Shown here: piece by piece, positions 26,461-57,406 of the stretch
Layout: the number at the start of each line of letters is the position of its first letter
Numbering within the stretch: the first letter of the stretch is position 1
Assembly: GCA_029168955.1 (NCBI GenBank)
Contig: JAPDOI010000215.1
Coordinates: 376,001 to 440,000, forward strand
Origin: Aplectana chamaeleonis
Lineage: Eukaryota > Nematoda > Chromadorea > Rhabditida > Cosmocercidae
Direction of reading: 5' to 3'
DNA: 64,000 bases
Notes under the pieces: generated by a model
Database searches by the model: none
What the model saw: only the letters and a program-made list of their open reading frames with translations
What the model was told of the DNA's origin: nothing
Made by a program: the position numbers and the translations under genes

Positions 26461-26498
26461 AATCTACCATTGAACCTGTTCAGGAACACTCCCACCGC

Positions 26499-31840: not shown

Positions 31841-33565
31841 CAGGGGTGTGCGTAAATTAAATTTCAAATTTCGTAAATCGTAAAACGTAATTACGACAGA
31901 ACCACCGTTAATCGTAAACCGTAAATCGTAAACCGTAAACAGCAAATAATAACAATAACCACCAAAAATATTATTACTATGGTGGAACAAGAGAAACTAC
32001 CTACCGTCCTACTGTCCACCGTTTGACGTATTAGCACATACATATTAGGTTGCGTTCAGTATTTGACAGCGAACCACGTTTGAAGAGTATGGTATACTTT
32101 GTCGCTGTCATGAGCGACAGGCATGAAATATAGCACAAATTCGCGGCGGGACCGTGTCTCGTGAAAGTATACCATACGTTTAATGGGGCCGTCTTATCCG
32201 CATTTTTCTGCTTTCCCTTATCACTCATTCACACCTTCTTCCCCTGCCTTGAGAAATCCGCCTGTCCGATTCAGGTATCCAAGAATCTGCTGGGTAACAG
32301 GGTCACAATTGAACTCTTAGTTCCCCTCTCGAAACGCTAACGCCGTTGTAAGCTTAAAACAAGCCAAAGTGACCGTAACTGTGCGATTCTCTACGACCGA
32401 ATTTAAGAACTCCAATTTGCTAGCGGAACGGCAACACCGATTATACATTCGGTAAGGCTTGCACTGGTATGTACTTCGAGTTTCCTACTGAAGGTTGGCT
32501 CAAACTCGGTGCACGTACGTCGAAAAATATGGCATCGAGCTTGCGCCAATCTTTGATAGAGATAGCAAAGTATCAGTCCGATCAGTGGCAACTCTGTATT
32601 ATCTAGAGCTCAGTATCGGTCGCCCAGCGCAAGTTATTTTTTCCTATATCTTCTAAATCACTTGCAGATTCATAGCTTTATGGTGACGCCACTGTAGATA
32701 ATTAAAGGCAACGTAAGCACAAAAAACGCTGTCTAATTTTTGTCGCTTTGTGTAGTTTAGTTCCCATAGTTCAGGAATGTAGCCAAGGCGCCCCACCACA
32801 CGTTCGCATTTGTGATAGATAACGGTTTCAGAAAAAGGGCGAAGATGAGCGTTTAAACTAGCGCTCACGCATTTTCCGAGTGTCCGCTTGCTGCGGACGA
32901 AGAGAGGTTAACTGGAGGAAACGATTTTCAGCGTCAAACTTTTTAGGTAAAAAAAACGGACGCTCCTCTTGTTGATTTTTGTAGACTCTGAGTAAACATA
33001 ATCTACTCAAAAGGCGGGCCAGGAGTAGTACTTGAAGCAATTTTTGGATAGCTCAGACTGCTTCGCTCGATGTTTTGACGCTAATCTAGTTGTAGGAATC
33101 AGGACAGTTGATCATCATGAAAAACTCGAAAACAAAGTTACTCGTGAAGAGCGCTTTCAGACTGCATCGCGTCGTAGGCGGCAGCCAAGGAGACGCGCGC
33201 GGCTTGTAACGAGGGTCTGCTGTCCAGCGCCTCCAACTCCGTACGTGTGTCCCGCGTTGAAATGATAGAATCGCGTCAAAGATTGATAATGGAATCGTGT
33301 TATTGATTTTGATCAACAACAATGACTGGTAGCAGTATCAAGCATCTCTTATCAGGTGTGATTCATTCCATTTCTAAATTTACTTGAATGCCCCCCCCCT
33401 TAAGATAGAGCCGAGATATCTTGTGATTTACTTCCATTGCATGTATTTTTATTTACGAAAAATTACGATTTACGGTCCAAAATGTCGTAAATCGTAAACC
33501 GTAATTACGAGTTTAAAAAACACCGTAAATCGTAAAATCGTAAACCGTAATTACGCACAGCCCTG
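31841..33565. mobile_element. Non-autonomous hAT element with perfect 8-bp TSD
   Basis: The termini CAGGGGTGTGCGTAA (31841) and TTACGCACAGCCCTG (33551-33565) are inverted with one mismatch. TTCTGTGT immediately flanks both sides (31833-31840 and 33566-33573). A CAGGG terminus plus an exact 8-bp duplication is the hAT hallmark. Both subterminal regions carry clustered GTAAATCGTAAACC motifs, as expected for transposase binding sites. The 1725 bp contain no transposase-like frame. Minor inverted blocks occur inside, for example near 32080-32180. Confidence 0.88.
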
Positions 33566-34196
33566 TTCTGTGTACATTCGTATTAGAGTGGTATGGCAGA
33601 GTGGACCATATGTGAATTTTCCCAAACCTTGTTAGACTTCTTTTTTTGTCTATAGGACAATTAAGACTGGGTTTCAGGACTATCATGTCACATTGTTGAA
33701 TGGCCTGCCTGCTTGCCGGCAGATTGATTGAAATGTTGTGAGTATTTTCCAGACATCGAGCCTATGTTCAAGGCAAAGAATTCAAGAACGTGGCTCAATC
33801 AAACCATCCGTTCTGAGCAGATGGGGTCAGACGGAGGGCGTCGTTATCAGAAAGTTGGTTCGCAACATGCTAAATGGAGCTTCTGATGTGAACCGACGCC
33901 TACACAATTTTGAAGGGTCTGGGTTGAAGGTTCTGGCGGTTTCTTCTATGAAAGAGCTAAAGCAGTGGCTATAGAACTATGGATCTGGCAAAGGTTAGCT
34001 GTAGCACATGAATTTGCAATGATCCTTTTCCGAGATTTTCAATGTTAGCTTCCTGGAACTTGATCCAATCACCGCTTCTCGGCTAAATCTGGATGCAGCT
34101 CAGAACCAGGGATATGGAGGTATGCATTAATTATCTCGCAAAGCACTGTACTCAACGTTGAGATTTGGCACTACAAAGTGAGAAATTCCCTTTTAG

Positions 34197-34529
34197 GATC
34201 GACAAGCACCTCAGCGACACCGTCGAGTGGGACCAAATCAAGAGCGAACTAAATGAACAGCTGAATGCGAACAAAGCTGACATCTCAGCCTCAGGACGAG
34301 AAGTGCTCCGTTTTAAATATGATCTCGCTAGTGCATTGCAGGTGAGTTTCGTCTTCTTCTAGCACTTCATCCACTAGAGCTGTTATTGTCAATTCAGGAA
34401 AACCAGAGGCTCGAGGATGAATGCTCCAGTTTGAAGCAACTAGTAGATGAAATGAAACAGGATCTGAAAACGCACAGCGATCATTATCACGCATCTGTCC
34501 ATGGTATTAAAAGACGGTACGAAGAAGAG
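34197..34529 (+). CDS. Two exon-like segments encoding a coiled coil (gene incomplete)
   Basis: Segment 34197-34341 (acceptor CCCTTTTAG, donor GTGAGT) and segment 34398-34529 (acceptor CAATTCAG, donor GTCGGT) join at phase 0 across a 56-bp intron. Together they encode about 92 residues: IDKHLSDTVEWDQIKSELNE ... FKYDLASALQ, then ENQRLEDECSSLKQLVDEMK ... GIKRRYEEE. Heptad-like spacing of Leu/Val/Ile among charged residues predicts a coiled coil, reminiscent of intermediate-filament or other rod proteins, but I cannot name the family. The first segment needs an upstream exon ending with two bases of a codon. The nearest open candidate (34036-34119, LELDPITASRLNLDAAQNQG) ends in the wrong phase, and no clear downstream exon is seen. 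It may be a real partial gene or a decayed one. Confidence 0.5.
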
Positions 34530-34676
34530 GTCGGTGGTTCTATACATTAGGCTGTACGATGTCCTGGGGATTATCCACGAAGAACGAGTCGAAGTTTTGG
34601 AAGGGTCAAAGAAGTTTCTCTGACGTGAACGAGTGCGACGCCGCGAACGGCGACGGAGAAACAAGGTTCGGCGTGA

Positions 34677-35297
34677 GGGGTCGTTTATACTTCCGCCGCG
34701 GAGCGGCGCGGCAATAAGTAGAGCGGTTCGGCGCGCCGCGCCGCTCGAAAAATCGCGCCACCAGGATATATAATCGGGCTGCGTCGAATTTACGCGGCGA
34801 AGTCGCAGAATGACGTTAAACACAGCCTGAACTAGCTCTGACATAACACAAGGCCAATTGTATTGAGTGATTTCTTGTGCAAAAAGAACATCTATATTTT
34901 TCTGTACCATAACACAGCACCCGAAGGCGGATAGAGTCTTCGAAAACGATTTCTCTTTAGAAAAACGATTTCAAAAGCTAAAAAAATGAACTTTTCACAA
35001 CCCAGCCTACTCTAAACAACGCCCAGGACCTTGGAAGGAATTTTAGAGATGAGTCAGAAGAACAAGATTGAGAATGTGTATGGAATAACAGCAAAAGAAG
35101 CATACTATGTCATTGCGGATCGCACGCGGCCGCCGCGCCGCCTGCTTTCCTCGGGAGGCGCGGCAGCACCTAGGCGGCGGCCGCGTGCGGCACCGTTGGA
35201 AGATTTCGAGCAGAAAAACTCTAAACGCTTCGCGGCCGCTTGATCGATATGGCTGTATTGCATCTCGCCGCGCCGCGGCGGAAGTATAAACGACCCC
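34677..35297. mobile_element. GC-rich TIR element with 3-bp TGA duplication
   Basis: GGGGTCGTTTATACTTCC continuing to GCCGCGG at 34677-34701 is perfectly inverted at 35273-35297. TGA flanks both ends (34674-34676 and 35298-35300). A 3-bp duplication with a GGG start resembles PIF/Harbinger-type MITEs (inferred). The interior contains a second, nested perfect inverted repeat (CGCACGCGGCCGCCGC near 35119-35134 and its complement near 35175-35190). It sits 150 bp after the coiled-coil exon. Confidence 0.75.
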
Positions 35298-35300
35298 TGA

Positions 35301-36718
35301 GGTGTAATGTATCTAACAATAAGAGGAGGGGAGGTCATACCCGTTGACGTCCGGCTGTGGGGGGGGGGGTTCGGACCTTCGACCAACCAAGAACAAAGAT
35401 GAGCTTCTATCAGGGGTGGGGGAGAGATTGAGAGATACACCATTAGTATAAAAATGACTGCAAGCTGAGACAAAATGAGATCCCAATAAAAAGTCAAAAT
35501 ATAACTAGAGATCAAACGGAGAGGGCGAATTCAGACACGAGATCAAAAAAGTAACTGAATAGTGAACGCTCGCCCTCTCACTTCAGCGCTGCTCAGTGCT
35601 CCTCAATGCTGATAGGTGCCCGTACAGGCAGAAAGACACTGGCAAATACATCCTGCCTCGTGTTGATTCGATTGAAAACGCTTGACCTGGTGATCACTCA
35701 CACGAATCGACTCGCTTGCTGCTTATTCATCACGGTTTGGGATGGTCTTGGTAGGCTTATTAGGCACGAGGACATTGGTTTTGAGGTAGGTTTGGCTTTA
35801 ATCGCTTGCGGGATAAAACATATGGCTTGAAAGTGGCTGCATCTCTCCCGAATCGAGCGTGAGCGGGCGAGGGGGGGGGTAAGCGGTGGATGCTGCCGAA
35901 CATTATCGTCGCCGCGTCGGTTGCTGCTCGCTGACAGTGACGAAGGGTCTTCGCAGCGTCAAAACACTCTGCAGTGCCCCTCGTCGCCCTTCACGCCGCG
36001 TCGGTCGCCCTCGCAGCCGAATGTAATCGATATTGCATCATCCACCGCTGTTCGTAGCTGCGAGCAACGCCGCGACTTCAACTCTGCAGACCTCTTTAGC
36101 GCGCACGAGCGGCTAGCAAATCATGTGCCCTCGATGAACATCAATTTTGCGCGCGCCCTCGCAGCTTATGGACGCTGCCTGACATGCAGGCGGAGTCGTG
36201 GCTAGGTAAAGTGTGTCGCCAAAGCTGTCCTGGATATGACAGCAGCAGTGTTGTTAAGTATTCACTGTCGTCGAAGTCATCACAAGCTGAATATCATGTC
36301 AACAAAATGAAAGAGATGTTCTAGAAATTAGTAATGTAAAACCTATTTCGAAGCCGATTTTTCACAGCCGCGACGCGGCTGGAGAGGTTTGGTTTTGCCT
36401 AGGCCTTGTGATCACTTACAATTTTATAAAGTAGTTTATAAAACCATTAAAACAAATTGTCTGCAGATTTCCTTCTGGACATAAGTTAAGGGGTCCAAAA
36501 GACATCAGCTATCAAAATTTGAGCCAAATCGGTTCACAAATCACAAAGTTGTGAGCCCGAAAGCTTAGGAAAAATTCATGGTGTGCGCCGAGGCCGTGAG
36601 CCGTGGGACGTAGGCCGTAGGCCGTCACGCTTTTCATTCCTCACTGCTAGTATCCACTGCCAATGGTCACAGGCGGTCAATTTCAGGCAGGTAAGTTGGT
36701 AGGGGGGACGCAGGCTGG
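35301..36718. other. No supported gene; left approach to the satellite
   Basis: There are runs of G at 35359-35368 and 35869-35877, and GC-rich sequence at 35870-36190 with partial inverted motifs (AGCGGTGGATG / CATCCACCGCT, about 160 bp apart). AGGCCGTGAGCCGTGG and AGGCCGTAGGCCGT form a small repeat at 36588-36624. No recognisable exon is present. Confidence 0.5.
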
Positions 36719-37626
36719 TGAAAGGTGCATCTGGCTTCTGATGACGTCACGGGGACGTCGTGAAAGGTGCATCTGGCTTCTGATGACGTCACGGGGACGT
36801 CGTGAAAGGTGCATCTGGCTTCTGATGACGTCACGGGGACGTCGTGAAAGATGCATCTGGCTTCTGATGACGTCACGGCGACGTCGTGAAAGGTGCATCT
36901 GGCTTCTGATGACGTCATGGGGACGTCGTTTAAAGTGCATCTGGCTTCTGATGACGTCATCGGGACGTCGTGAAAAGTGCATCTGGCTTCTGATGACGTC
37001 ATGGGGACGTCGTGAAAGGTGCATCTGGCTTCTGATGACGTCATCGGACGTCGTGAAAAGTGCATCTGGCTTCTGATGACGTCATGGGGACGTCGTGAAA
37101 AGTGCATCTGGCTTCTGATGACGTCACGGGACGTCGTGAAAGGTGCATCTGGCTTCTAATGACGTCATGGGGACGTCGTTAAAAGTGCATCTGGCTTCTG
37201 ATGACGTCATGGGGACGTCGTGAAAGGTGCATCTCGTTTCTGATGACGTCATCGGGACGTCGTTAAAAGTGCATCTGGCTTCTGATGACGTCACGGGGAC
37301 GTCGTGAAAGGTGCATCTGGCTTCTGATGACGTCATGGGGACGTCGTTAAAAGTGCATCTGGCTTCTGATGACGTCATCGGGACGTCGTGAAAAGTGCAT
37401 CTGGCTTCTGATGACGTCATCGGGACGTCGTGAAAAGTGCATCTGGCTTCTGATGACGTCATGGGGACGTCGTGAAAGGTGCATCTGGCTTCTGATGACG
37501 TCATGGGGACGTCGGTAAAAGTGCATCTGGCTTCTGATGACGTCATCGGGACGTCGTGAAAAGTGCATCTGGCTTCTGATGACGTCATGGGGACGTCGCG
37601 AAAGGTGCATCTGGTTTCTGATGACG

Positions 37627-39351
37627 TCATCGGGACGTCGCTAAAAGTGCATCTGGCTTCTGATCACGCATGGGGACGTCGTGAAAAGTGCATCTGGCTT
37701 CTGATGACGTCATGGGGACGTCGTGAAAGGTGCATCTGGCTTCTGATGACGTCATCGGGACGTCGTTAAAAGTGCATCTGGCTTTTGATGACGTCATCGG
37801 GACGTCGTGAAAAGTGCATCTGGCTTCTGATGACGTCATGGGGACGTCGTGAAAGGTGCATCTGGCTTCTGATGACGTCATCGGGACGTCGTTAAAAGTG
37901 CATCTGGCTTCTGATGACGTCATCGGGACGTCGTGAAAAGTGCATCTGGTTTCTGATGACGTCATGGGGACGTCGCACAGGGTGCATCTGGCTTCTGATG
38001 ACGTCATCGGGACCTCGTTAAAAGTGCATCTGGCTTCTGATGACATCATCGGGACGTCGTGAAAAGTCCATCTGGTTTCTGATGAAGTCATGGAGACGTC
38101 GTGAAAGGTGCATCTGGCTTCTGATGACGTCACCTGGACGTCGTTAAAAGTGCATCTGGCTTCTGATGACGTCATGGGGACGTCGTGAAAGATGCATCTG
38201 GCTCCTGATGACGTCATGGGGACGTCCTGAAAAGTGCGCCTGGCTTCTGATGACGTCATGGGGACGTCGTGAAAAGTGCATCTGGCTTCTGATGACGTCA
38301 TCGGGACGTCGTGAAAAGTGCACCTGGCTTCTGATTACGTCATCGGGACGTCGTGAAAAGTGCATCTGGCTTCTGATGACGTCATCGGGACGTCGTGAAA
38401 AGTGCATCTGGCTTCTGATGACGTCATGGGGACGTCGTGAAAGGTGCATCTGGCTTCTGATGACGTCATGGGGACGTTGGTAAAAGTGCATCTGGCTTCT
38501 GATGACGTCATCGGGACGTCGTGAAAAGTGCATCTGGCTTCTGATGACGTCATGGGGACGTCGCGAAAGGTGCATCTGGTTTCTGATGACGTCATCGGGA
38601 CGTCGCTAAAAGTGCATCTGGCTTCTGATCACGCCATCGGGACGTCGTGAAAAGTGCATCTGGCTTCTGATGACGTCATGGGGACGTCGTGAAAAGTGCA
38701 TCTGGCTTCTGATGACGTCATGGGGACGTCGTGAAAGGTGCATCTGGCTTCTGATGACGTCATCGGGACGTCGTTAAAAGTGCATCTGGCTTTTGATGAC
38801 GTCATCGGGACGTCGTGAAAAGTGCATCTGGCTTCTGATGACGTCATGGGGACGTCGTGAAAGGTGCATCTGGCTTCTGATGACGTCATCGGGACGTCGT
38901 TAAAAGTGCATCTGGCTTCTGATGACGTCATCGGGACGTCGTGAAAAGTGCATCTGGTTTCTGATGACGTCATGGGGACGTCGTACAAGGTGCATCTGGC
39001 TTCTGATGACGTCATCGGGACCTCGTTAAAAGTGCATCTGGCTTCTGATGACATCATCGGGACGTCGTGAAAAGTCCATCTGGTTTCTGATGAAGTCATG
39101 AAGACGTCGTGAAAGGTGCATCTGGCTTCTGATGACGTCACCTGGACGTCGTTAAAAGTGCACCCGGCTTCTGATGACGTCATCGGGACGTCGTGAAAAG
39201 TGCATCTGGCTTCTGATGACGTCATCGCGACGTCGTGAAAAGTGCACCTGGCTTCTGATGACGTCATCGGGACGTCGTGAAAAGTGCACCTGGCTTCTGA
39301 TGACGTCATCGGGACGTCGTGAAAAGTGCATCTGGCTTCTGATGACGTCAT
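37627..39351 (+). repeat. Higher-order duplication of 1008 bp (24 units)
   Basis: The rare variant block GTCCATCTGGTTTCTGATGA followed by AGTCATG occurs at 38066, 39074 and 39608. The first two are exactly 1008 bp apart (24 x 42), with matching rare neighbours on the left (an ACCTCGTTAAAA unit, a TGACATCA unit and a TACAAGG/CACAGGG unit). The third is 534 bp further on (12 units plus two 15-bp partials). Confidence 0.85.
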
Positions 39352-39461
39352 CGGGACGTCGTGAAAAGTGCACCTGGCTTCTGATTACGTCATCGGGACG
39401 TCGTGAAAAGTGCATCTGGCTTCTGATGACGTCATGGGGACGTCGTTAAAAGTGCATCTGG

Positions 39462-42400
39462 CTTCTGATCATCTGGCTTCTGATGACGTCATGGGGACGT
39501 CGTTAAAAGTGCATCTGGCTTCTGATCATCTGGCTTCTGATGACGTCATCGGGACGTCGTGAAAAGTGCATCAGGCTTCTGATGACGTCATCGCGACGTC
39601 GTGAAAAGTCCATCTGGTTTCTGATGAAGTCATGAAGACGTCGTGAAAGGTGCATCTGGCTTCTGATGACGTCACCTGGACGTCGTTAAAAGTGCACCTG
39701 GCTTCTGATGACGTCATCGGGACGTCGTGAAAAGTGCATCTGGCTTCTGATGACGTCATCGCGACGTCGTGAAAAGTGCACCTGGCTTCTGATGACGTCA
39801 TCGGGACGTCGTGAAAAGTGCACCTGGCTTCTGATGACGTCATCGGGACGTCGTGAAAAGTGCATCTGGCTTCTGATGACGTCATCGGGACGTCGTGAAA
39901 AGTGCACCTGGCTTCTGATTACGTCATCGGGACGTCGTGAAAAGTGCATCTGGCTTCTGATGACGTCATGGGGACGTCGTTAAAAGTGCATCTGGCTTCT
40001 GATCATCTGGCTTCTGATGACGTCATGGGGACGTCGTGAAAGTGCCTCTGGCTTCTGATGACGTCATCGCGACGTCGTGAAAAGTGCATCCGGCTTCTGA
40101 TGACGTCATCGGGACGTCGTGACAAGTGCCTCTGGCTTCTGATGACGTCATCGCGACGTCGTGAAAAGTGCATCTGGCTTCTGATGACGTCATCGGGACG
40201 TCGTGAAAAGTGCATCTGGCTTCTGATGACGTCATCGGGACGTCGTGAAAAGTGCATCTGACTTCTGATGACGTCATCGGGACGTCGTGAAAAGTGCATC
40301 TGGCTTCTGATGACGTCATCGGGACGTCGTGAAAAGTGCATCTGGCTTCTGATGACGTCATCGGGACGTCGTGAAAAGTGCATCTGGCTTCTGATGACGT
40401 CATCGGGACGTCGTGAAAAGTGCATCTGGCTTCTGATGACGTCATCGGGACATCGTTAAAAGTGCATCTGGCTTCTGATCATCTGGCTTCTGTTGACGTC
40501 ATCGGGACGTCGTGAAAAGTGCCTCTGGCTTCTGATGACGTCATCGCGACGTCGTGAAAAGTGCATCTGGCTTCTGATGACGTCATCGGGACGTCGTGAA
40601 AAGTGCATCTGGCTTCTGATGACGTCATCGGGACGTCGTGAAAAGTGCATCTGGCTTCTGATGACGTCATCGGGACGTCGTTAAAAGTGCATCTGGCTTC
40701 TGATTACGCCATCGGGACGTCGTGAAAAGTGCATCTGGCTTCTGATGACGTCATCGGGACGTCGTGAAAAGTGCATCTGGCTTCTGATGACGTCATCGGG
40801 ACGTCGTTAAAAGTGCATCTGGCCTCCGATCATCTGGCTTCTGATGACGTCATCGGGACGTCGTGAAAAGTGCATCTGGCTTCTGATGACGTCATCGCGA
40901 CGTCGTGAAAAGTGCATCTGGCTTCTGATGACGTCATGGGGACGTCGCGAAAGGTGCATCTGGCTTTTGATGACGTCACCTGGACGTCGTTAAAAGTGCA
41001 TCTGGCTTCTGATGACGTCATCGGGACGTCGTGAAAAGTGCATCTGGCTTCTGATGACGTCATCGCGACGTCGTGAAAAGTGCACCTGGCTTCTGATGAC
41101 GTCATCGGGACGTCGTGAAAAGTGCACCTGGCTTCTGATGACGTCATCGGGACGTCGTGAAAAGTGCATCTGGCTTCTGATGACGTCATCGGGACGTCGT
41201 GAAAAGTGCACCTGGCTTCTGATTACGTCATCGGGACGTCGTGAAAAGTGCATCTGGCTTCTGATGACGTCATGGGGACGTCGTTAAAAGTGCATCTGGC
41301 TTCTGATCATCTGGCTTCTGATGACGTCATGGGGACGTCGTTAAAAGTGCATCTGGCTTCTGATGACGTCATCGGGACGTCGTGAAAAGTGCATCTGGCT
41401 TCTGATGACGTCATCGGGACGTCGTGAAAAGTGCATCTGGCTTCTGATGACGTCATCGCGACGTCGTGAAAAGTGCATCTGGCTTCTGATGACGTCATCG
41501 GGACGTCGTGAAAAGTGCACCTGGCTTCTGATGACGTCATCGGGACGTCGTGAAAAGTGCATCTGGCTTCTGATGACGTCATCGGGACGTCGTGAAAAGT
41601 GCACCTGGCTTCTGATTACGTCATCGGGACGTCGTGAAAAGTGCATCTGGCTTCTGATGACGTCATGGGGACGTCGTTAAAAGTGCATCTGGCTTCTGAT
41701 CATCTGGCTTCTGATGACGTCATCGGGACGTCGTGAAAAGTGCATCTGGCTTCTGATGACGTCATCGGGACGTCGTTAAAAGTGCATCTGGCTTCTGATC
41801 ATCTGGCTTCTGATGACGTCATCGGGACGTCGTGAAAAGTGCATCTGGCTTCTGATGACGTCATCGCGACGTCGTGAAAAGTGCATCTGGCTTCTGATGA
41901 CGTCATCGGGACGTCGTGAAAAGTGCATCTGGCTTCTGATGACGTCACCGGGACGTCGTGAAAAGTGCATCAGGCTTCTGATGACGTCATCGGGACGTCA
42001 TTAAAAGTGCATCTGGCTTCTGATGACGTCATCGGGCCGTCGTGAAAGGTGCATCTGGCTTCTGATGACGTCATCGGGACGTCGTGAAAAGTGCATCTGG
42101 CTTCTGATGACGTCATCGGGACGTCGTGAAAAGTGCATCTGGCTTCTGATGACGTCATCGGAACGTCGTGAAAAGTGCATCTGGCTTCTGATGACGTCAT
42201 CGGAACGTCGTGAAAAGTGCATCTGGCTTCTGATGACGTCATCGGGACGTCGTTGAAAAGTGCATCTGGCTTCTGATGACGTCATCGGGACGTCGTGAAA
42301 AGTGCATCTGGCTTCTGATGACGTCATCGGGACGTCGTGAAAGGTGCATCTGGCTTCTGATGACGTCATCGGGACGTCGTGAAAAGTGCGTCTGGCTTCT

Positions 42401-45400
42401 GATGACGTCATCAGGACGTCGTGAAAAGTGCATCTGGCTTCTGATGACGTCATCGGGACGTCGTGAAAAGTGCATCTGGCTTCTGATGACGTCATATGGA
42501 CGTCGTTAAAAGTGCATCTGGCTTCTGATGACGTCAACGGGACGTCGTGAAAAGTGCTTCGGGCTTCTGATGACGTCATCGGGACGTCGTGAAAAGTGCA
42601 TTTGGCTTCTGATGACGTCATCGGGACGTCGTGAAAAGTGCATCTGGCTTCTGATGACGTCATCGGGACGTCGTGAAAAGTGCATCTGGCTTCTGATGAC
42701 GTCATCGGGACGTCGTGAAAAGTGCATCTGGCTTCTGATGACGTCATCGGGACGTCGTGAAAAGTGCATCTGGCTTCTGATGACGTCATCGGGACGTCGT
42801 GAAAAGTGCATCTGGCTTCTGATGACGTCATCGGGACGTCGTGAAAAGTGCACCTGGCTTCTGATGACGTCATCGGGACGTCGTGAAAAGTGCATCTGGC
42901 TTCTGATGACGTCATCGGGACGTCGTGAAAAGTGCATCTGGCTTCTGATGACGTCATCGGGACGTCGTGAAAAGTGCATCTGGCTTCTGATGACGTCATC
43001 GGGACGTCGTTAAAAGTGCATCTGGCTTCTGATGACGTCATCGGGACGTCGTGAAAAGTGCATCTGGCTTCTGATGACGTCATCGGGACGTCGTGAAAAG
43101 TGCATCTGGCTTCTGATGACGTCATCGGGACGTCGTGAAAAGTGCATCTGGCTTCTGATGACGTCATCGGGACGTCGTGAAAAGTGCATCTGGCTTCTGA
43201 TGACGTCATCGGGACGTCGTTAAAAGTGCATCTGGCTTCTGATGACGTCATCGGGACGTCGTGAAAAGTGCATCTGGCTTCTGATGACGTCATCGCGACG
43301 TCGTGAAAAGTGCCTCTGGCTTCTGATGACGTCATCGGGACGTCGTGAAAAGTGCATCTGGCTTCTGATGACGTCATCGGGACGTCGTGAAAAGTGCATC
43401 TGGCTTCTGATGACGTCATCGGGACGTCGTGAAAAGTGCATCTGGCTTCTGATGACGTCATCGGGACGTCGTTAAAAGTGCATCTGGCTTCTGATGACGT
43501 CATCGGGACGTCGTGAAAAGTGCATCTGGCTTCTGATGACGTCATGGGGACGTCGTGAAAAGTGCATCTGGCTTCTGATGACGTCATCGGGACGTCGTGA
43601 AAAGTGCATCTGGCTTCTGATGACGTCATCGGGACGTCGTGAAAAGTGCATCTGGCTTCTGATGACGTCATCGGGACGTCGTGAAAAGTGCATCTGGCTT
43701 CTGATGACGTCATCGGGACGTCGTGAAAAGTGCACCTGGCTTCTGATGACGTCATCGGGACGTCGTGAAAAGTGCATCTGGCTTCTGATGACGTCATCGG
43801 GACGTCGTGAAAAGTGCACCTGGCTTCTGATTACGTCATCGGGACGTCGTGAAAAGTGCATCTGGCTTCTGATGACGTCATGGGGACGTCGTTAAAAGTG
43901 CATCTGGCTTCTGATCATCTGGCTTCTGATGACGTCATCGGGACGTCATGAAAAGTGCACCTGGCTTCTGATGACGTCTTGGGGACGTCGTTAAAAGTGC
44001 ATCTGGCTTCTGATCATCTGGCTTCTGATGACGTCATCGGGACGTCGTGAAAAGTGCATCTGGCTTCTGATGACGTCATCGCGACGTCGTGAAAAGTGCA
44101 TCTGGCTTCTGATGACGTCATCGGGACGTCGTGAAAAGTGCACCTGGCTTCTGATGACTTCATCGGGACGTCGTGAAAAGTGCATCTGGCTTCTGATGAC
44201 GTCATCGGGACGTCGTGAAAAGTGCACCTGGCTTCTGATTACGTCATCGGGACGTCGTGAAAAGTGCATCTGGCTTCTGATGACGTCATGGGGACGTCGT
44301 GAAAGGTGCATCTGGCTTCTGATTACGTCATGGGGACGTCGTTAAAAGTGCATCTGGCCTCCGATCATCTGGCTTCTGATGACGTCATCGGGACGTCGTG
44401 AAAAGTGCATCTGGCTTCTGATGACGTCATCGCGACGTCGTGAAAAGTGCATCTGGCTTCTGATGACGTCATGGGGACGTCGTGAAGGTGCATCTGGCTT
44501 CTGATGACGTCATCGGGACGTCGTGAAAAGTGCATCTGGCTTCTGATGACGTCATCGGGACGTCGTGAAAAGTGCATCTGGCTTCTGATGACGTCATCGG
44601 GACGTCGTGAAAAGTGCATCTGGCTTCTGATGACGTCATCGGGACGTCGTGACAAGTGCCTCTGGCTTCTGATGACGTCATCGGAACGTCGTGAATAGTG
44701 CATCTGGCTTCTGATGACGTCGTCGGGACGTCGTTAAAGGTGCACCTGGCTTCTGATTACGCCATCGGGACGTCGTGAAAAGTTCATCTGGCTTCTGATG
44801 ACGTCATCGGGACGTCGTTAAAAGTGCATCTGGCTTCTGATGACGTCATCGGGACGTGGTGAAAAGTGCATCTGGCTTTTGATGACGTCATCGGGACGTC
44901 GTTAAAAGTGCATCTGGCTTCTGATTACGCCATCGGGACGTCGTGAAAAGTGCATCTGGCTTCTGATGACGTCATCGGGACGTCGTGAAAAGTGCATCTG
45001 GCTTCTGATGACGTCATCGGGACGTCGTGAAAAGTGCATCTGGCTTCTGATGACGTCATCGGGACGTCGTGAAAAGTGCATCTGGCTTCTGATGACGTCA
45101 TCGGGACGTCGTGAAAAGTGCATCTGGCTTCTGATGACGTCATCGGGACGTCGTGAAAAGTGCACCTGGCTTCTGATGACGTCATCGGGACGTCGTGAAA
45201 AGTGCATCTGGCTTCTGATGACGTCATCGGGACGTCGTGAAAAGTGCATCTGGCTTCTGATGACGTCATCGGGACGTCGTGAAAAGTGCATCTGGCTTCT
45301 GATGACGTCATCGGGACGTCGTGAAAAGTGCATCTGGCTTCTGATGACGTCATCGGGACGTCGTGAAAAGTGCATCTGGCTTCTGATGACGTCATCGGGA

Positions 45401-48378
45401 CGTCGTGAAAAGTGCCTCTGGCTTCTGATGACGTCATCGCGACGTCGTGAAAAGTGCATCTGGCTTCTGATGACGTCATCGGGACGTCGTGACAAGTGCC
45501 CCTGGCTTCTGATGACGTCATCGCGACGTCGTGAAAAGTGCATCTGGCTTCTGATGACGTCATCGGGACGTCGTGAAAAGTGCATCTGGCTTCTGATTAC
45601 GTCATCGGGACGTCGTGAAAAGTGCATCTGGCTTCTGATGACGTCATGGGGACGTCGTGAAAGGTGCATCTGGCTTCTGATTACGTCATGGGGACGTCGT
45701 TAAAAGTGCATTTGGCCTCCGATCATCTGGCTTCTGGTGACGTCATCGGGACGTCGTGAAAAGTGCATCTGGCTTCTGATGACGTCATCGCGACGTCGTG
45801 AAAAGTGCATCTGGCTTCTGATGACGTCATGGGGACGTCGCGAAAGGTGCATCTGGCTTTTGATGACGTCACCTGAACGTCGTGAAAAGTGCATCTGGCT
45901 TCTGATGACCTCATCGCGACGTCGTGAAAAGTGCATCTGGCTTCTGATGACCTCATCGCGACGTCGTGAAAAGTGCATCTGGCTTCTGATGACGTCATCG
46001 GGACGTCGTGAAAAGTGCACCTGGCTTCTGATGACGTCATCGGGACGTCGTGAAAAGTGCATCTGGCTTCTGATGACGTCATCGGGACGTCGTGAAAAGT
46101 GCACCTGGCTTCTGACTACGTCATCGGGACGTCGTGAAAAGTGCATCTGGCTTCTGATGACGTCATGGGGACGTCGTGAAAGATGCATCTGGCTTCTGAT
46201 GACGTCATGGGGACGTCGTGAAAAGTGCGCCTGGCTTCTGATGACGTCATCGGGACGTCGTGAAAAGTGCATCTGGCTTCTGATGACGTCATCGGGACGT
46301 CGCGAAAAGTGCACCTGGCTTCTGATTACGTCATCGGGACGTCGTGAAAAGTGCGTCTGGCTTCTGATGACGTCATGGGGACGTCGTGAAAAGTGCATCT
46401 GGCTTCTGATGACGTCATGGGGACGTCGTTAAAAGTGCATCTGGCTTCTGATCATCTGGCTTCTGATGACGTCATCGGGACGTTGTGAAAAGTGCATCTG
46501 GCTTCTGATGACGTCATCGCGACGTCGTGAAAAGTGCATCTGGCTTCTGATGACGTCATGGGGACGTCGTGAAAAATGCATCTGGCTCCTGGTGCATCTG
46601 GCTTCTGATGACGTCATGGGGACGTCGTGAAAAGTGCATCTGGCTTCTGATGACGTCATCGCGACGTCGTGAAAAGTGCATCTGGCTTCTGATGACGTCA
46701 TCGGGACGTCGTGAAAAGTGCACCTGGCTTCTGATGACGTCATCGGGACGTCGTGAAAAGTGCATCTGGCTTCTGATGACGTCATCGAGACGTCGTGAAA
46801 AGTGCACCTGGCTTCTGATTACGTCATCGGGACGTCGTGAAAAGTGCATCTGGCTTCTGATGACGTCATGGGGACGTCGTGAAAGATGCATCTGGCTTCT
46901 GATGACGTCATGGGGACGTCGTTAAAAGTGCATCTGGCTTCTGATCATCTGGCTTCTGATGACGTCATCGGGACGTCGTGAAAAGTGCATCTGGCTTCTG
47001 GTGACGTCATCGCGACGTCGTGCAAAGTGCATCTGGCTTCTGATGACGTCATCGGGACGTCGTGAAAAGTGCGCCTAGCTTCTGATGACGTCATCGGGAC
47101 GTCGTGAAAAGTGCATCTGGCTTCTGATGACGTCATCGGGACGTCGTGAAAAGTGCACCTGGCTTCTGATTACGTCATCGGGACGTCGTGAAAAGTGCAT
47201 CTGGCTTCTGATGACGTCATGGGGACGTCGTGAAAGATGCATCTGGCTTTTGATGACGTCATGAAAGATGCATCTGGCTTCTGATGACGTCATGGGGACG
47301 TCGTTAAAAGTGCATCTGGCTTCTGATCATCTGGCTTCTGATGACGTCATCGGGACGTCGTGAAAAGTGCATCAGGCTTCTGATGACGTCATCGCGACGT
47401 CGTGAAAAGTGCATCTGGCTTCTGATGACGTCATCGGGACGCCGTGAAAAGTGCATCTGGCTTCTGATGACGTCATGGGGACGTCGTGAAAGGCGCATCT
47501 GGCTTCTGATGACGTCATCGGGACGTCGTGAAAAGTGCATCTGGCTTCTGATGACGTCATCGGGACGTCGTGAAAAGTGCATCTGGCTTCTGATGACGTC
47601 ATGGGGACGTCGTGAAAGATGCATCTGGCTTCTGATGACGTCATGGGGACGTCGTTAAAAGTGCATCTGGCTTCTGATCATCTGGCTTCTGATGACGTCA
47701 TCGGGACGTCGTGAAAAGTGCATCAGGCTTCTGATGACGTCATCGCGACGTCGTGAAAAGTGCATCTGGCTTCTGATGACGTCATCGGGACGTCGTGAAA
47801 AGTGCATCTGGCTTCTGATGACGTCATGGGGACGTCGTGAAAGGTGCATCTGGCTTCTGATGACGTCATCGGGACGTCGTGAAAAGTGCATCTGGCTTCT
47901 GATGACGTCATCGGGACGTCGTAAAAAGTGCATCTGGCTTCTGATGACGTCATGGGGACGTCGTGAAAAATGCACCTGGCTCCTGGTGCATCTGGCTTCT
48001 GATGACGTCATCGCGACGTCGTGAAAAGTGCATCTGGCTTCTGATGACGTCATCGGGACGTCGTGAAAAGTGCATCTGGCTTCTGATGACGTCATGGGGA
48101 CGTCGTGAAAGGTGCATCTGGCTTCTGATGACGTCATCGGGACGTCGTGAAAAGTGCATCTGGCTTCTGATGACGTCATCGGGACGTCGTGAAAAGTGCA
48201 TCTGGCTTCTGATGACGTCATGGGGACGTCGTGAAAAATGCATCTGGCTCCTGGTGCATCTGGCTTCTGATGACGTCATGGGGACGTCGTGAAAGATGCA
48301 TCTGGCTTCTGATGACGTCATGGGGACGTCGTTGAAAGTGCATCTGGCTTCTGATCATCTGGCTTCTGATGACGTCAT
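39462..48378 (+). repeat. Truncated-unit markers within the satellite (15-bp and 18-bp partial units)
   Basis: At many points the unit is cut short as GGCTTCTGATCATCTGGCTT, a 15-bp partial unit: near 39470, 39527, 40007, 40479, 41307, 41700, 41800, 43914, 44018, 46450, 46944, 47327, 47680 and 48354. Variants with GGCCTCCGATCATCTGG occur near 40824, 44360 and 45717. A second type, ATGCATCTGGCTCCTGGT (18 bp), occurs near 46577, 47980, 48238 and 51168. These junctions recur with similar neighbours, so they mark higher-order duplications. Confidence 0.85.
47304..48006 (+). repeat. Higher-order repeat of ~351 bp (8 units + 15 bp)
   Basis: The block from one 15-bp partial unit at 47327 to the next at 47680 (about 351 bp = 8 x 42 + 15) is repeated almost base for base in the following 330 bp: the same order of GCATCAGG, ATCGCG, ATCGGG and ATGGGG variants and GAAAGGYGCATC units. 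This is the clearest higher-order unit in the array. Confidence 0.8.
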
Positions 48379-51300
48379 CGGGACGTCGTGAAAAGTGCAT
48401 CTGGCTTCTGATGACGTCATCGCGACGTCGTGAAAAGTGCATCTGGCTTCTGATGACGTCATCGGGACGTCGTGAAAAGTGCGCCTAGCTTCTGATGACG
48501 TCATCGGGACGTCGTGAAAAGTGCATCTGGCTTCTGATGACGTCATCGGGACGTCGTGAAAAGTGCACCTGGCTTCTGATGACGTCATCGGGACGTCGTG
48601 AAAAGTGCATCTGGCTTCTGATGACGTCATCGGGACGTCGTGAAAAGTGCATCTGGCTTCTGATGACGTCATCGGGACGTCGTGAAAAGTGCATCTGGCT
48701 TCTGATGACGTCCTCGGGACGTCGTGAAAAGTGCATCTGGCTTCTGATGACATCAACGGGACTTTCTGAAAAGTGCATCTGGCTTCTGATGACGTCATCG
48801 GGACGTCGTGAAAAGTGCATCTGGCTTCTGATGACGTCATCGGTACGTCGTGAAAAGTGCATCTGGCTTCTGATGACGTCATCGGGACGTCGTGAAAAGT
48901 GCATCTCGCTTCTGATGACGTCATCGGGACGTCGTGAAAAGTGCATCTGGCTTCTGATGACGTCATCGGGACGTCGTGAAAAGTGCATCTGGCTTCTGAT
49001 GACGTCATCGGGACGTCGTGAAAAGTGCATCTGGCTTCTGATGACGTCATCGGGACGTCGTGAAAAGTGCATCTGGCTTCTGATGACGTCATCGGGACGT
49101 CGTGAAAAGTGCATCTGGCTTCTGATGACGTCATCGGGACGTCGTGAAAAGTGCATCTGGCTTCTGATGACGTCATCGGGACGTCGTGAAAAGTGCATCT
49201 GGCTTCTGATGACGTCATCGGGACGTCGTGAAAAGTGCATCTGGCTTCTGATGACGTCATCGGGACGTCGTGAAAAGTGCATCTGGCTTCTGATGACGTC
49301 ATCAAGACGTCGTGAAAAGTGCATCTGGCTTCTGATGACGTCATCGGGACGTCGTGAAAAGTGCATCTGGCTTCTGATGACGTCATCGGGACGTCGTGAA
49401 AAGTGCATCTGGCTTCTGATGACGTCATGGGGACGTCGTGAAAGATGCATCTGGCTTCTGATGACGTCATGGGGACGTCGTTAAAAGTGCATCTGGCTTC
49501 TGATGACGTCATCGGGACGTCGTGAAAAGTGCATCTGGCTTCTGAGGACGTCATCGGGACGTCGTGAAAAGTGCATCTGGCTTCTGATGACGTCATCGGG
49601 ACGTCGTGAAAAGTGCATCTGGCTTCTGATGACGTCATCGGGACGTCGTGAAAAGTGCATCAGGCTTCTGATGACGTCATCGCGACGTCGTGAAAAGTGC
49701 ATCTGGCTTCTGATGACGTCATGGGGACGTCGTGAAAAGTGCATCTGGCTTCTGATGACGTCATCGGGACGTCGTGAAAAGTGCACCTGGCTTCTGATTA
49801 CGTCATCGGGACGTCGTGAAAAGTGCATCTGGCTTCTGATGACGTCATCGGGATGTCGTGAAAAGTGCATCTGGCTTCTGATGACGTCATCGGGACGTCG
49901 TTAAAAAAGCATCTGGCTTTTGATGACGTCACCTGGACGTCGTTAAAAGTGCATCTGGCTTCTGATGACGTCATCGGGACGTCGTGAAAAGTGCATCTGG
50001 CTTCTTATGACGTCATCGCGACGTCGTGAAAAGTGCATCTGGCTTCTGATGACGTCATCGGGACGTCGTGAAAAGTGCATCTGGCTTCTGATGACGTCAT
50101 GGGGACGTCGTGAAAGATGCATCTGGCTTCTGATTACGTCATCGGGACGTCGTGAAAAGTGCATCTGGCTTCTGATGACGTCATCGGGACGTCGTGAAAA
50201 GTGCATCTGGCTTCTGATGACGTCATGGGGACGTCGTGAAAGATGCATCTGGCTTCTGAAGACGTCATGGGGACGCCGTGAAAGGTGCATCTGGCTTCTG
50301 ATGACGTCATCGGGACGTCGTTGAAAAAGCATCTGGCTTTTGATGACGTCACCTGGACGTCGTTAAAAGTGCATCTGGCTTCTGATGACGTCATCGGGAC
50401 GTCGTGAAAAGTGCATCTGGCTTCTGATGACGTCATCGCGACGTCGTGAAAAGTGCATCTGGCTTCTGATGACGTCATCGGGACGTCGTGAAAAGTGCAC
50501 CTGGCTTCTGATTACGTCATCGGGACGTCGTGAACAGTGCATCTGGCTTCTGATGACGTCATCGCGACGTCGTGAAAAGTGCATCTGGCTTCTGATGACG
50601 TCATGGGGACGTCGCGAAAGGTGCATCTGGCTTCCGATGACGTCATCAGGACGTCGTGAAAAGTGCATCTGGCTTCTGATGACGTCATGGGGACGTCGTG
50701 AAAGTTGAATCTGGCTTCTGATGACGTCATCGGGACGTCGTTAAAAGTGCATCTGGCTTCTGATGACGTCGTCGGGACGTCGTGAAAAGTTCATCTTGTT
50801 TCTGAAGACGTCATGGGAACGCCGTGAAAGGTGCATCTGGCTTCTGATGACGTCATCGGGACGTCGTAAAAGTGCATCTGGCTTTTTATGACGTCACCTG
50901 GACGTCGTTAAAAGTGCATCTGGCTTCTGATGACGTCATCGGGACGTCGTGAAAAGCGCATCTGGCTTCTGATGACGTCATCGCGACGTCGTGAAAAGTG
51001 CATCTGGCTTCTGATGACGTCATCGGGACGTCGTAAAAAGTGCACCTGGCTTCTGATTACGTCATCGGGACGTCGTGAAAAGTGCATCTGGCTTCTGATG
51101 ACGTCATGGGGACGTCGTGAAAGATGCATCTGGCTTCTGATGACGTCATGGGGACGTCGTGAAAAATGCATCTGGCTCCTGGTGCATCTGGCTTCTGATG
51201 ACGTCATGGGGACGTCGTTAAAAGTGCATCTGGCTTTTGATGACGTCACCTGGACGTCGTTAAAAGTGCATCTGGCTTCTGATGACGTCATCGGGATGTC

Positions 51301-51638
51301 GTGAAAAGTGCATCTGGCTTCTGATGACGTCATCGCGACGTCGTGAAAAGTGCATCTGGCTTCTGATGACGTCATCGGGACGTCGTAAAAAGTGCACCTG
51401 GCTTCTGATTACGTCATCACGACGTCGTGAAAAGTGCATCTGGCTTCTGATGACGTCATGGGGACGTCGTGAAAGATGCATCTGGCTTCTGATGACGTCA
51501 TCGGGACGTCGTGAAAAGTGCATCTGGCTTCTGATGACGTCATCGGGACGTCGTGAAAAGTGCATCTGGATTCTGATGACGTCATCGAGACGTCATGAAA
51601 AGTGCATCTGGCTTCTGATGACGTCATCGAGACGTCGT

Positions 51639-51944
51639 CTTAACTTCTACTGGGCTTTATGAACCTTTCGCACACATATTGACAATAAGAATAGTCTTTG
51701 CGTTCACTGCAGTTTCAGAACGATCGACGATAATGGACCAAGAATCGAACTATTCAGTTGTTCCAGAGGCGATTTCGCCTAATGTAATTTTTGTATAATT
51801 ATAACTCTCTCACAAGGCGAGAAGTCGGTGTATTCTAGCAGCCTATGTATGCACCGAATAAGTGAGCGTAATGAAGTGTGCTAGTTTAGCATGAATTACA
51901 TATGTACATGGGATATTACTGCGTAATATCGATAAAAACTGAAC
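51639..51944. other. Right flank of the satellite, nothing recognised
   Basis: The array stops abruptly at GAGACGTCGT and is followed by AT-rich unique-looking sequence. No exon, TIR or tandem repeat is visible. Confidence 0.5.
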
Positions 51945-52567
51945 GATTCTTTCGAAAAGGGGTCTTCCAAGCTAAAGAGGTTCGGTTCGCGTCAGAAACG
52001 TTGCAACAAAAAGGGAACAATAGGAAAGTGAAATAAGTAGAGTGCAGAAAAAGTGAACAATATAATTTCGAAGCGATATTCCCGTTGAACCCTTCTAAAC
52101 AGCGAAAACAAACCGTTGTGGTTTTTTACGAGGAAGAGTTTTGTGTTTTCTAGAAAACGGCTTCTATTCGTTCCATGAGATTTTATGAGAATATTTTTGT
52201 TTGATGCTGTTCTTCTATATCTATAATTTCGCTTCTTCTTACATCTGGAGCTAACCATGTGTGTAAGTCTTTTCGAAATCATCTTCTGTTTTAATGGTAA
52301 GTATTAGGTTTACATGCATATACATTTTAATGGTTCTTACGTAGTCATAACCATTTTCGGGACCACAAAGTGCTTCCGTGTAGAACATCGCAACGACTTG
52401 TTTTCGCTGTTTAGAAGGGTCCACCATGAATATCGCTTTGAAATTATATTGTTCACTTTTCCTACACTCTACTTATTTCACTTTCCTATTGTTCCCTTTT
52501 TGTTGCAACGTTTCTGACGCGAACCAATCCTCTTTAGCTTGGAAGACCCCTTTTTGAAAGAATCCCA
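51945..52567. mobile_element. Long inverted-repeat element (~175-bp arms)
   Basis: The left arm 51945-52122 (GATTCTTTCGAAAAGG ... CTTCTAAACAGCGAAAACAA) is nearly the exact reverse complement of 52388-52567 (TTGTTTTCGCTGTTTAGAAG ... CCCCTTTTTGAAAGAATC). The interior loop is about 265 bp. Repeated frames in the arms are artefacts. A transcript through it would make a long double-stranded hairpin. Confidence 0.8.
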
Positions 52568-53442
52568 ATTAGGGATCTTCGCATTGCTACAACGTGCGGG
52601 AAACCTTGTCTTGGAACCAAGTAACTAATTAAGTTTTTTTGACCTTTTCAAAACGGTCTTTCATTACACATTTTAGTTGTGATACAATAGATTGTACCGC
52701 ACCTAAAAATGGGTCTTCGAAGACCGTTTTGAACTGTCGAATATAGTCAACGAACGAAACTTGAAATTCACGACTACAAGAGATTCAAGAAGAAAAGGGT
52801 TGTATTTGCTGATGGTATTCACCTCTTCACCTATTTCTACGTGAAACATTATATACGTATCCTCACGAGCCTTTTTCGTCAGCCGTTACTGTATTTTGTT
52901 CATCCCACTCTTTGGCTGTTTACAGTGGTAAACAGGCAATGCAAACACTGTCCACTCATCTTCCGTTCCCTAGTCTATCCTTCACGTCTCAGCCTTTTCC
53001 TCTCGACTACGATCACTTTAACAAATCGAAACGGATAAGTGCCTACCAACGCTGACAGAGATAAGAAAACAGTTGCACTCTGATGGAGGAAAAATGACTT
53101 GGAGCTCAAATGTGGCTGCAACAGTGAAGTTCAGGTTTTGTGAACTGTATGCTCCAGCGTTTGAACACCATTCACTTGTGACGAACTCATTGGAGGCTGA
53201 GCAATTACACTTGCATTCTTCAACCAAGTGGGCTGTCCTGAAATTCAATCACACTGATGAGTAGAAACGATAACGTAGAATAGAGCAGCTGCACGTAAAA
53301 TCACCGCAACGCTACCGCTCGCTGAAGTGGACTCTATGAATTACGTCGGCAACGGAACGCATTTGCGAAGCTGCTGAAAAAGCAATACGCTGCTATAGAA
53401 CTGCCACTGATAATTATGTGAGTGGGTTGGGGTATTGTATTC
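52568..53442. other. No supported gene
   Basis: A short inverted pair CAAAACGGTCTTTC / GAAGACCGTTTTGAAC lies at 52650-52735. Opposite-strand open frames at 53018-53264 overlap one another and have no recognisable domain. Confidence 0.45.
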
Positions 53443-53444
53443 TA

Positions 53445-53713
53445 CTGTGCTTATCTGGGCCAAATTCCGGTCCGCAATTGCGTCTCGACACGCTTTGCGG
53501 CCGCACGCGCCCGAGTCAGAAGAGCTTCCAGTGCCGCAGCCGCCAATCTGCTGACTCTAGGTGGGTTTTGGAGACTGGAAACTAAGAAAAATTGCATAAA
53601 AAAGCCACATTGAGTCGGCTTTGGCGCTGGAAACACGACTGACTCGAGCGCGTGCGGCCGCAAAGCGTGTCGAGACGCAATTGCGGACCGGAATGTGACC
53701 CAGATAAGCACAT
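53445..53713. mobile_element. TA-flanked MITE, copy 2 (long, near-perfect arms)
   Basis: The left arm from CTGTGCTTATCTGGGCC through AATTGCGTCTCGACACGC and GGCCGCACGCGCCCGAGTCA is inverted almost perfectly at about 53640-53713. TA stands outside both ends (53443-53444 and 53714-53715). It shares the AAATTCCGG(T)CGCAATTGCG core with the element at 1022-1218. The high arm identity indicates a younger copy. Confidence 0.75.
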
Positions 53714-53715
53714 TA

Positions 53716-55234
53716 TATGCACCACTTGGCTCCGAAAATTAATTTAACCTCAATTTTCCGAACTTTTTGAGTAGAATACTACTGAATCGAAGCCGAAAAC
53801 GGCAGTCTGGGGATACAAATGCACCATACATTAGCCTTATACATATGCTTTTTTGATTTTCAATCACAAGACGCATACAAGGATCATTAGATCACCTCAG
53901 AGAAATCTCTCTCGTCCAACGATTGTCTGTGATTATTTAATTTTGGCTGTCGTGTCCGAGAACGATAACCTGGCTACAGGCAGCGCGAGCGTTCGCGTCG
54001 CGCTACGGTTGCAGTAATTTTTCTGTAGAAGGAAGTGCGTTTGAGTAGTTGCCCACGACTCTGTCAAGGTAATTAGAACACGGGTGCCGCAACGCGACCG
54101 CCCGCGCAGCCCGCAGCCAGGCTGTCACTCTCGAACACGACTATTACGGTCGGCAAGGAACGCAAGAAAAATCCTATCAACATGAAACCGCATTTTGCGT
54201 TGTTGCTTCAGCGCTGGGGTGCGTTTTCATCCCGTCCGTTATAGATCAGCGCACGTTTTGCTGGTCCAGCCACCATCTACTCGTACAATGAAAGTGTGTA
54301 CAGGGAATTGCAAGTCCTTAGATCGCCACGTCAAAATTTCCCCCAGCTGAAAGCTTAAAGTTATGCGTAGGTGCAGCTGAAAACTTAAAGTTAAAAGAAA
54401 CCAAAAACGTCTTGTATCCAAATCAACCTAAAATCGGCGATGTCTGCGAATAACGTGCGGTATTCTAAAGAGCTGTTTTCATCACAAGAATTACGCGATG
54501 CGACGACTAGGAATATCGTGGCATCGTTTTGTGGACCATACCTAAAAACTTGAAAATGTTATTGTAATATTCAGTTCGACATATATGCAACTTGAACCTA
54601 GGGAAATTTCGAATATAACGAAAATCTTTCAAATGAACACAGTGATAACTTCGAGAGATGTCATGCGCAATCAACTAAAGAGTTAGAAGGATTTTAGCCG
54701 TCCGTGTAGAGTCAACAGAAGACTGTTTGCTTCCGCGCACCGTAGCAGACACTGCTCGTACCTGAATCGATTCCGCCTCTCCTAGTCCTCTCACCTGACC
54801 ACTCGGAGCCAACAGACCCGAGCTTCTCCCGTCTTTCTCAGGTTAAACACCATTAGTTAAAATCAGGTTACTTCCTGTATATGTATGCGACGGAGCTCTC
54901 TCTCTCTTGTATTCACTACAGTTTTTCAATTCTGCTATAACAAAATGTTGCCACTCACCTAGAATCAGCGTTCACGATATTTTTCAATCATTTGCTTCAA
55001 AAAACACTTGGTTCCTCACTGAAGATAAAATAAGGATGCAAATGTTCGAGCACATGAAATCGAGTGCTCACACTTCATCTCCCAGCCACCAAAATAACTG
55101 TTTGTAGGAACGGCGAAATCGTTTGTAAACCGGTCCTCTATGTATAAGTTTCAAATTCTTCTGGACAGTTTTCCCTGCTTCCGAAGTGAATCGATGCTGT
55201 TTTTCATAATATATATTATCTATGTTGTTTCGAT
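53716..55234. other. No supported gene
   Basis: A local direct repeat of CAGCTGAAA(G/A)(C)TTAAAGTTA occurs at 54346-54362 and 54377-54393. Otherwise there are only short frames. No exon or transposon end is recognised. Confidence 0.45.
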
Positions 55235-55238
55235 TTAA

Positions 55239-55706
55239 AGGCAGCATACACGCTCGCGAAAGTTGTTGAGATAAGTACGTTACAGGGATCGTACGGGCTC
55301 TAGTAGAACTCTCACGAAGTTGCAAGCGTCAAAGATGAGCTAGAATAACAGTATTTTGGCCGTAGTCACCAAATCATCCTTTCTCCGCCCACCGATACGG
55401 ACTTCGGCCATTAACACGTATATTCAATCCCCGATTACTGTCATTTTGGCTCATTTTTTACATTTGTGAATGCGTATGCGTTCCAGTAAAGACCGTACGA
55501 ATGTATTGCCGTTGTTATCCCAACCCATTTGTCGCTGGCTTCGCTATTTTAGCCAATGCGGTGTAACTCGTCTACTTCTGGACCTATTCACCTTTATTTT
55601 AATCGATTCTTTTTCGACTTTTATCGCCATTTCTCAATACTAACAACTTCAGACCTTCGATTCATTCCGAAAAAAATGATATCATTTTTGAGCGTGTATG
55701 CTGCCT
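55239..55706. mobile_element. AGGCA-family element, same subfamily as 3016-3492
   Basis: TTAA at 55235-55238 precedes AGGCAGCATACACGCTC, and the right end GAGCGTGTATGCTGCCT is followed by TTAC (a decayed TTAA). Interior blocks such as CCGCCCACCGATACGG match 3336-3347 in inverted orientation. Confidence 0.75.
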
Positions 55707-56065
55707 TTACCCTTATTCTTCACCGACCGCGACTTCCAAATTTTCATTCATCGTCGAGGATAACTAGATCGCGCAAATTCAAAGGCAAGTTGCACGGTTA
55801 AAACGGCTGTTGTGTCGTCCTCATGAGAAGATGGATCATCTGGCCACCACAAAAGTTAAATTCAAATGAAATGTCATAAAAAGCGAGCGGAAACGAGTTA
55901 GAGAGGCTGATTACTGTTTGTGCGCTCACCGCCCGCCCAACTATTTAGATTTTGAAGAATGTTGGTTTTGTCGTTTTTTATTCTGCTCTTGAAATAGTTG
56001 CTAATCATTGTAAAAACGCTGCGAACTATTAATTGATTCGGAACTACTACTATACCCTTTCCCAA

Positions 56066-57405: not shown

Positions 57406-57406
57406 T

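Follow-up and report, generated by a model that had tools for sequence, protein, structure and literature searches.

The window analysed here is a stretch of 64,000 nucleotides from the nematode Aplectana chamaeleonis (contig JAPDOI010000215.1, positions 376,001 to 440,000, forward strand), and it contains a long tandem array built on the site of a transcription factor family. TRF places the array at 36718–51638 of the window, with a period of 42 bp and 348 copies, while a wrap-around alignment on the plus strand resolves 350 units, 316 of which align to the consensus without an insertion or deletion. Of the 349 steps from unit to unit, 319 are 42 bp long, 15 are 57 bp, six are 41 bp, four are 58 bp and five have other lengths. 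The 57- and 58-bp steps (19 of 349) coincide with partial duplications of 15 or 16 bp inside a unit. The consensus unit carries TGACGTCA, the palindromic cAMP response element (CRE) of basic leucine zipper (bZIP) factors of the CREB/ATF type, and a second GACGTC box starts 11 bp after the first. The array holds 308 exact copies of TGACGTCA and the rest of the window one (at 29283), whereas 100 shuffles of the window contain 1.47 on average and at most 4. An earlier note, made from the letters of this DNA, had described a long array with hundreds of palindromic CREB/ATF-type sites, and such an array is indeed present; the note was also right to label all of the roles that it proposed as inference. 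The count of exact copies that it had called for tempers its statement that almost every one of about 355 units has the site, as 308 sites in 350 units (88%) correspond to most of them.

The array has no strong higher-order period. Instead, identical blocks of up to 392 bp recur at separate places within it, which is a mark of block duplication. A coding array was considered, since 42 is divisible by 3 and one frame of the minus strand stays open for up to 609 codons; it was rejected because unit steps of 35, 38, 41, 43 and 58 bp break the frame and because the flank frames scanned lack a Pfam match. The Pfam scan covered 10 of the 12 flank frames (22001–36700 and 51640–64000) and returned no match in any of them, and these stretches of the window look gene-poor. 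Rfam at the gathering score and ARAGORN found no RNA gene and no tRNA over the window, and the exact 22-mer of the unit was not found in prokaryote or viral contigs.

The array is one member of a dispersed family. In searches covering 1,036,593,504 bases in 2,087 contigs, the unit 22-mer occurs exactly at 23,818 places (reversed control, 0), and there are 218,174 pairs of TGACGTCA at a spacing of exactly 42 bp, diverged related units included (reversed control, 24). The first 100 of the 22-mer matches fall into five arrays (L009–L013), which together with the window give six, and all six have a left module in common. A conserved 37-base part of this module (36655–36691 in the window) has 165 exact copies in the genome, the first 100 of which lie on 81 contigs. 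We picked 20 further copies (L017–L036) from the 165 by this left flank alone, and the array is present in all 20. Since they were picked in this way, their common left flank is no evidence; the hairpin CAGCCGCGAAGCGGCTGGAGAGG, however, played no part in the selection, and in all 26 copies it precedes the flank by 277–345 bp, with at most four mismatches. The exact 22-mer places and the left-module copies thus rule out a lone block. The description in the earlier note is incomplete in this respect: the long array stands, and the search for the unit that the note had suggested shows that it is not unique, being the internal repeat of an interspersed element whose left module occurs on at least 81 contigs.

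The limits of this element were set by homology. When the window was compared with five copies by blastn, the similarity began sharply at 36365 in all five and ended at 52563–52564 in four, while L009 stopped at 52447. The block that the first six copies share begins abruptly near the hairpin and is preceded by unrelated sequence. The whole element therefore spans 36365–52564 on the minus strand, with its 5′ end at 52564 and its 3′ end at 36365, the latter compared in 26 copies. The left module contains a short GGCCGTA-type minisatellite (36592–36625), the number of which differs between copies in a six-copy alignment. The right module (51639–52564) is of type A in the window; allowing up to five mismatches, types A and B are each found in 12 of the 26 copies, and in L031 and L035 the array runs to the end of the examined stretch (8–9 kb), so that the right module is not reached. 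The best uninterrupted stretch of units ranges from 7 to 348 across the 26 arrays, and the window copy is the longest measured. Several arrays are interrupted by inserted transposons. A small inverted-repeat transposon, with the ends GGGACTATC and GATAGTCCC, is inserted in the arrays of L009, L011, L012, L013 and others, and up to four of its right ends occur per CRE element.

On the minus strand, the element starts with T(T)CT; its other end consists, in this order, of AACCAAACCTCT, the hairpin and GAGCGA, after which comes a host T. The window copy lacks the last 3′-end bases present in other copies, and its terminal hairpin, CAGCCGCGACGCGGCTG (36365–36381, minus strand), is one base off the family hairpin and has a shorter stem; the folding energy of the 3′ end is −8.8 kcal/mol in this copy and −13.3 kcal/mol in the family. 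Next to it lies a 12-bp subterminal inverted repeat (36383–36394, annotated on the minus strand; plus-strand sequence, AGAGGTTTGGTT), whose partner near the 5′ end (52522–52533, plus strand) has one mismatch. In the first six copies, AGAGGTTTGGTT is found at the left end in six and, inverted, at the right end in five, where it is exact in L010 and L012, has one mismatch in L011 and L013, and is absent from L009. With up to two mismatches, the right-end repeat is present in 19 of 26 copies. The 3′ end reads CGA and then T in 25 of 26 copies. At the 5′ end, an A precedes T(T)CT in all 19 alignable copies (TTCT in 17, TCT in two), although this A could be the element's own; canonical Helitrons begin with TC.

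To look for the uninserted state, we compared the joined flanks of 19 copies with the fetched DNA and obtained three spanning matches (L011, L022 and L028). The L011 element is itself inserted in a copy of the small inverted-repeat transposon described above. At this site the uninserted copies of the host transposon align cleanly over the junction if the host AT is taken only once, which indicates that no target duplication arose. The L022 match fits insertion between A and T as well, but it lies within an AT repeat and is ambiguous. The L028 match consists only of its own locus in inverted form and is uninterpretable.

Among the features that characterise Helitrons, the element shows a hairpin near the 3′ end and insertion between A and T without target duplication, and the hairpin, the subterminal repeat and the lack of a target duplication together fit a non-autonomous Helitron-like element. 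From these features we judge it likely that a non-coding rolling-circle element of Helitron-like type in this nematode genome has the CRE array as its internal minisatellite, the retention of the ACGTC boxes by bZIP binding being the weaker part of this interpretation. The machinery for such movement is present, as shown by 42 genomic matches to Helitron_like_N (best E-value, 1.6e-62; none in 14 control genomes), several of them in long open frames. Examples lie at C61:2187527, C1733:136847, C1345:290058 and C65:354807. The genes whose open frames exceed 2,000 codons are probably autonomous Helitrons, and one Helitron_like_N protein may move the CRE element.

Several observations weigh against the rolling-circle assignment. 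Canonical Helitrons end in CTRR at the 3′ terminus. This end is missing here, the terminus being GAGCGA-T in 24 of the 26 copies, and some 30 bp separate the subterminal repeat from the 5′ end. The subterminal repeat is absent from the one 3-kb stretch tested next to a Helitron gene, and a clean empty site was obtained for only one of the 19 joined flanks.

A cut-and-paste DNA transposon, of the foldback type or another, that has internal repeats as Tetris does would account for some of the same features without rolling-circle transposition. The right end carries a 201-bp inverted repeat pair, with an inner arm at 51945–52145 (plus strand) and an outer arm at 52364–52564 (minus strand), the end of which is the 5′ end of the element; the arms are 90% complementary and 218 bp apart. 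Furthermore, no autonomous Helitron is tied to the element ends, and the 3-kb stretch just mentioned is consistent with this. In Tetris, the arms are distributed over the two ends, whereas both inverted arms lie at one end here. The opposite end is a short hairpin next to the 12-bp subterminal repeat, and the clean L011 site has no target duplication. Given this arrangement, we regard a foldback origin as unlikely.

A separate question is whether the CRE site itself is kept for its function. The earlier note had taken as its own criterion that the site should mutate more slowly than the rest of the unit. Within the window's own array, 87.7% of the units have an intact TGACGTCA, which ranks 8th for intactness among the 42 overlapping 8-mers, the best kept being GCTTCTGA (91.4% of units). 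By mean variation TGACGTCA ranks 10th of 42, or 7th over distinct units, and 22 of the 350 units share a G to T change at unit position 26. The site is thus unremarkable in the window array, which by that criterion gives no support for a binding role.

Comparison between elements gives a different picture. Over all 26 arrays (2,372 units), the CRE has the lowest mean rate of variation among the 42 8-mers and comes second by the number of array-by-base variants. When the window is excluded, the two GACGTC boxes taken together rank first of 42 circular shifts in the remaining 25 arrays, tied with the neighbouring shift by variant count, and their variation rate is 0.011 as compared to 0.051 elsewhere. 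Among the 20 flank-picked elements (1,781 units, 1,629 sites intact), TGACGTCA is the least variable of the 42 8-mers by both measures, with 8.0 variants per position at the CRE against 13.3 (p = 0.005; p = 0.010 after removal of the four most variable positions), p-values that are optimistic since the arrays share ancestry and positions are not independent. A lower variation at the site fails to appear within the window array and does appear across the flank-picked elements.

On this basis, binding by a bZIP protein of the CREB/ATF type is a possible reason why the ACGTC boxes are retained, though we hold this view only tentatively. A functional role for bZIP binding is a hypothesis, plausible and partly supported by the conservation across elements. 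Apart from the shared ancestry of the arrays, three observations count against binding: the site is not the best-kept word of the window array, it is present in only 60–72% of the units in L025, L022 and L034, and the related repeat families that contain it were found through TGACGTCA itself.

These families came to light among the matches listed for the CRE pair, 100 places all on one contig, which include families F2 (most of them) and F3 (two places). Their units match the window family at 25 and 21, respectively, of the 34 positions outside the site, and none of 20,000 shuffles reached the similarity of F2 or F3 to the window unit. The genome thus holds related 42-bp repeats with the same site in otherwise altered units. 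However, as F2 and F3 were picked up through the site, they are a biased sample and alone cannot show that it is conserved.

The same data bear on a neutral account, in which the founder unit had the palindrome by chance and carried it along as a passenger. On this view, all of the unit looks uniform owing to recent spread and homogenisation, and the low variation of ACGTC follows from the mutation pattern or from shared ancestry rather than from binding. The consensus of each of the 26 arrays differs from that of the window at only 0–3 of 42 positions, which indicates recent spread, and the inconspicuous behaviour of the site in the window array agrees with a passenger. In addition, the genome contains another satellite whose period is 42 bp or close to it (GGGTCCC...CACTTT...ACGGCG...), unrelated to the CRE unit and with a consensus that lacks TGACGTCA; it is found at 26487–26807 of the window, at 525–6216 of L018, at 5005–5503 and 9128–9876 of L022, and at 8–162 of L033. 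Against neutrality, the site is the least variable 8-mer of the flank-picked set, the two GACGTC boxes together are lowest in the 25 arrays without the window, and the site is present in families that differ at 9–13 of the other 34 positions, with the bias noted above. We put the chance that the site is a neutral passenger at about even.

A period of about 42 bp seems to be favoured in this genome. As 42 equals four times 10.5 and the boxes lie 11 and 31 bp apart, helical phasing was considered as a requirement. In array L031, the unit has lost two bases and is 40 bp long, and TGACGTCA is intact in all 218 counted units. Since this shorter unit keeps the site and the site-less satellite also has a 42-bp period, phasing is not supported.

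The pairs of sites, multiplied by 42 bp, correspond to about 9.2 Mb, or about 0.9% of the genome (a plain product, with no masking). From these counts one could propose a 42-bp superfamily that retains the palindromic CREB/ATF box and the period as the remainder of the unit diverges, so that rolling-circle elements would broadcast more than 200,000 bZIP sites as a genome-wide binding platform. Such a platform might act as an element-borne stress or germline promoter, as a sink that sets the level of free bZIP protein, or as a chromatin mark like the CENP-B box; we consider this rather unlikely. A related proposal would make the repeat a chromatin or kinetochore satellite used by the host, its box bound by a bZIP-like protein as CENP-B binds its own, with the mobile element as a mere carrier. 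The sheer amount of sequence, and the motif and period common to the diverged families, speak for such a satellite, whereas the window-family arrays are dispersed, with the first 100 flank matches on 81 contigs, and an unrelated 42-bp satellite does without the box. This use by the host appears improbable.

Other repeats of the window lie outside the element. At 8152–8575 there are three tandem copies of a 140-bp unit that are 98% alike, and inverted-repeat structures at 53443–53715 and 56047–56659 are probably small transposons. Elsewhere in the genome, an SL1 covariance model gives a match of 50 bits (gathering score, 75; E-value, 3.7e-5), which we take to contain the 22-base SL1 exon, next to what is presumably a 5S rRNA gene, in keeping with a nematode genome.

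Comparable systems are known from other animals. The palindrome AGAANNTTCT is, we assume, the site of HSF-1. Six satellite families of C. elegans are tied to Helitrons, and Cele_Fam_7_40, which is built on the palindromic AGAANNTTCT, is the sole one of the six with relatives in other Caenorhabditis species (PMC4595182). HSF-1 binds heat-shock elements in Helitrons, eight HelitronY4_CE copies holding more than 100 of them, and it is possible that only Caenorhabditis has Helitrons rich in HSF-1 sites (PMC6927752). HelitronY4_CE and its relatives are nematode rolling-circle elements, as the Aplectana element probably is, and in both cases the internal satellite, whose unit is about 40 bp long in C. 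elegans, is built on a palindromic transcription factor site. They differ in that the palindrome is of the CREB/ATF type here and an HSF-1 site there, and the unit and the ends differ as well. Binding was established there by chromatin immunoprecipitation sequencing, whereas it is a hypothesis here. A single copy here has about 350 units, and more than 200,000 site pairs occur genome-wide.

In their architecture, Cg_HINE of the Pacific oyster (PMC7492417) and DINE-1/HINE (PMC4067079) are similar, with subterminal inverted repeats of 11–15 bp, a palindrome that follows the 3′ subterminal repeat, a short microsatellite, a central satellite-like array and no target duplication. The insertion site is A^T here as compared to TT in these elements; at the 5′ end of the Aplectana element, the subterminal repeat is set about 30 bp inwards and arms of 200 bp are present. 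The short repeat is beside the 3′ end here, while it belongs to the left (5′) module in the oyster elements. Tetris, a foldback transposon of Drosophila virilis (PMC4079207), is likewise a DNA transposon, and its internal repeats contribute to a satellite. In fission yeast, Atf1 is involved in the assembly of heterochromatin, so a bZIP protein can act on chromatin too. Among the literature matches listed, the portions available contain no description of the window element or of a CRE satellite.

If the element is Helitron-like, an autonomous Helitron protein would copy it and thereby disperse the array, slippage and unequal exchange would lengthen or shorten it, and the window copy would be a strongly expanded one. 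Binding of a CREB/ATF-type bZIP protein, the less certain step, might then keep the ACGTC boxes, and it could aid the element by opening chromatin or by transcription in the germline or under stress. As a side effect, the host would carry thousands of dispersed decoy or enhancer sites, a number large enough that the amount of free bZIP protein per cell might change. By analogy, the CRE element looks like the strategy of the HSF elements with a CREB/ATF palindrome in its place. Finding it in another nematode, with the palindrome of another factor, would suggest a general strategy in which rolling-circle elements multiply host transcription factor sites as internal satellites.

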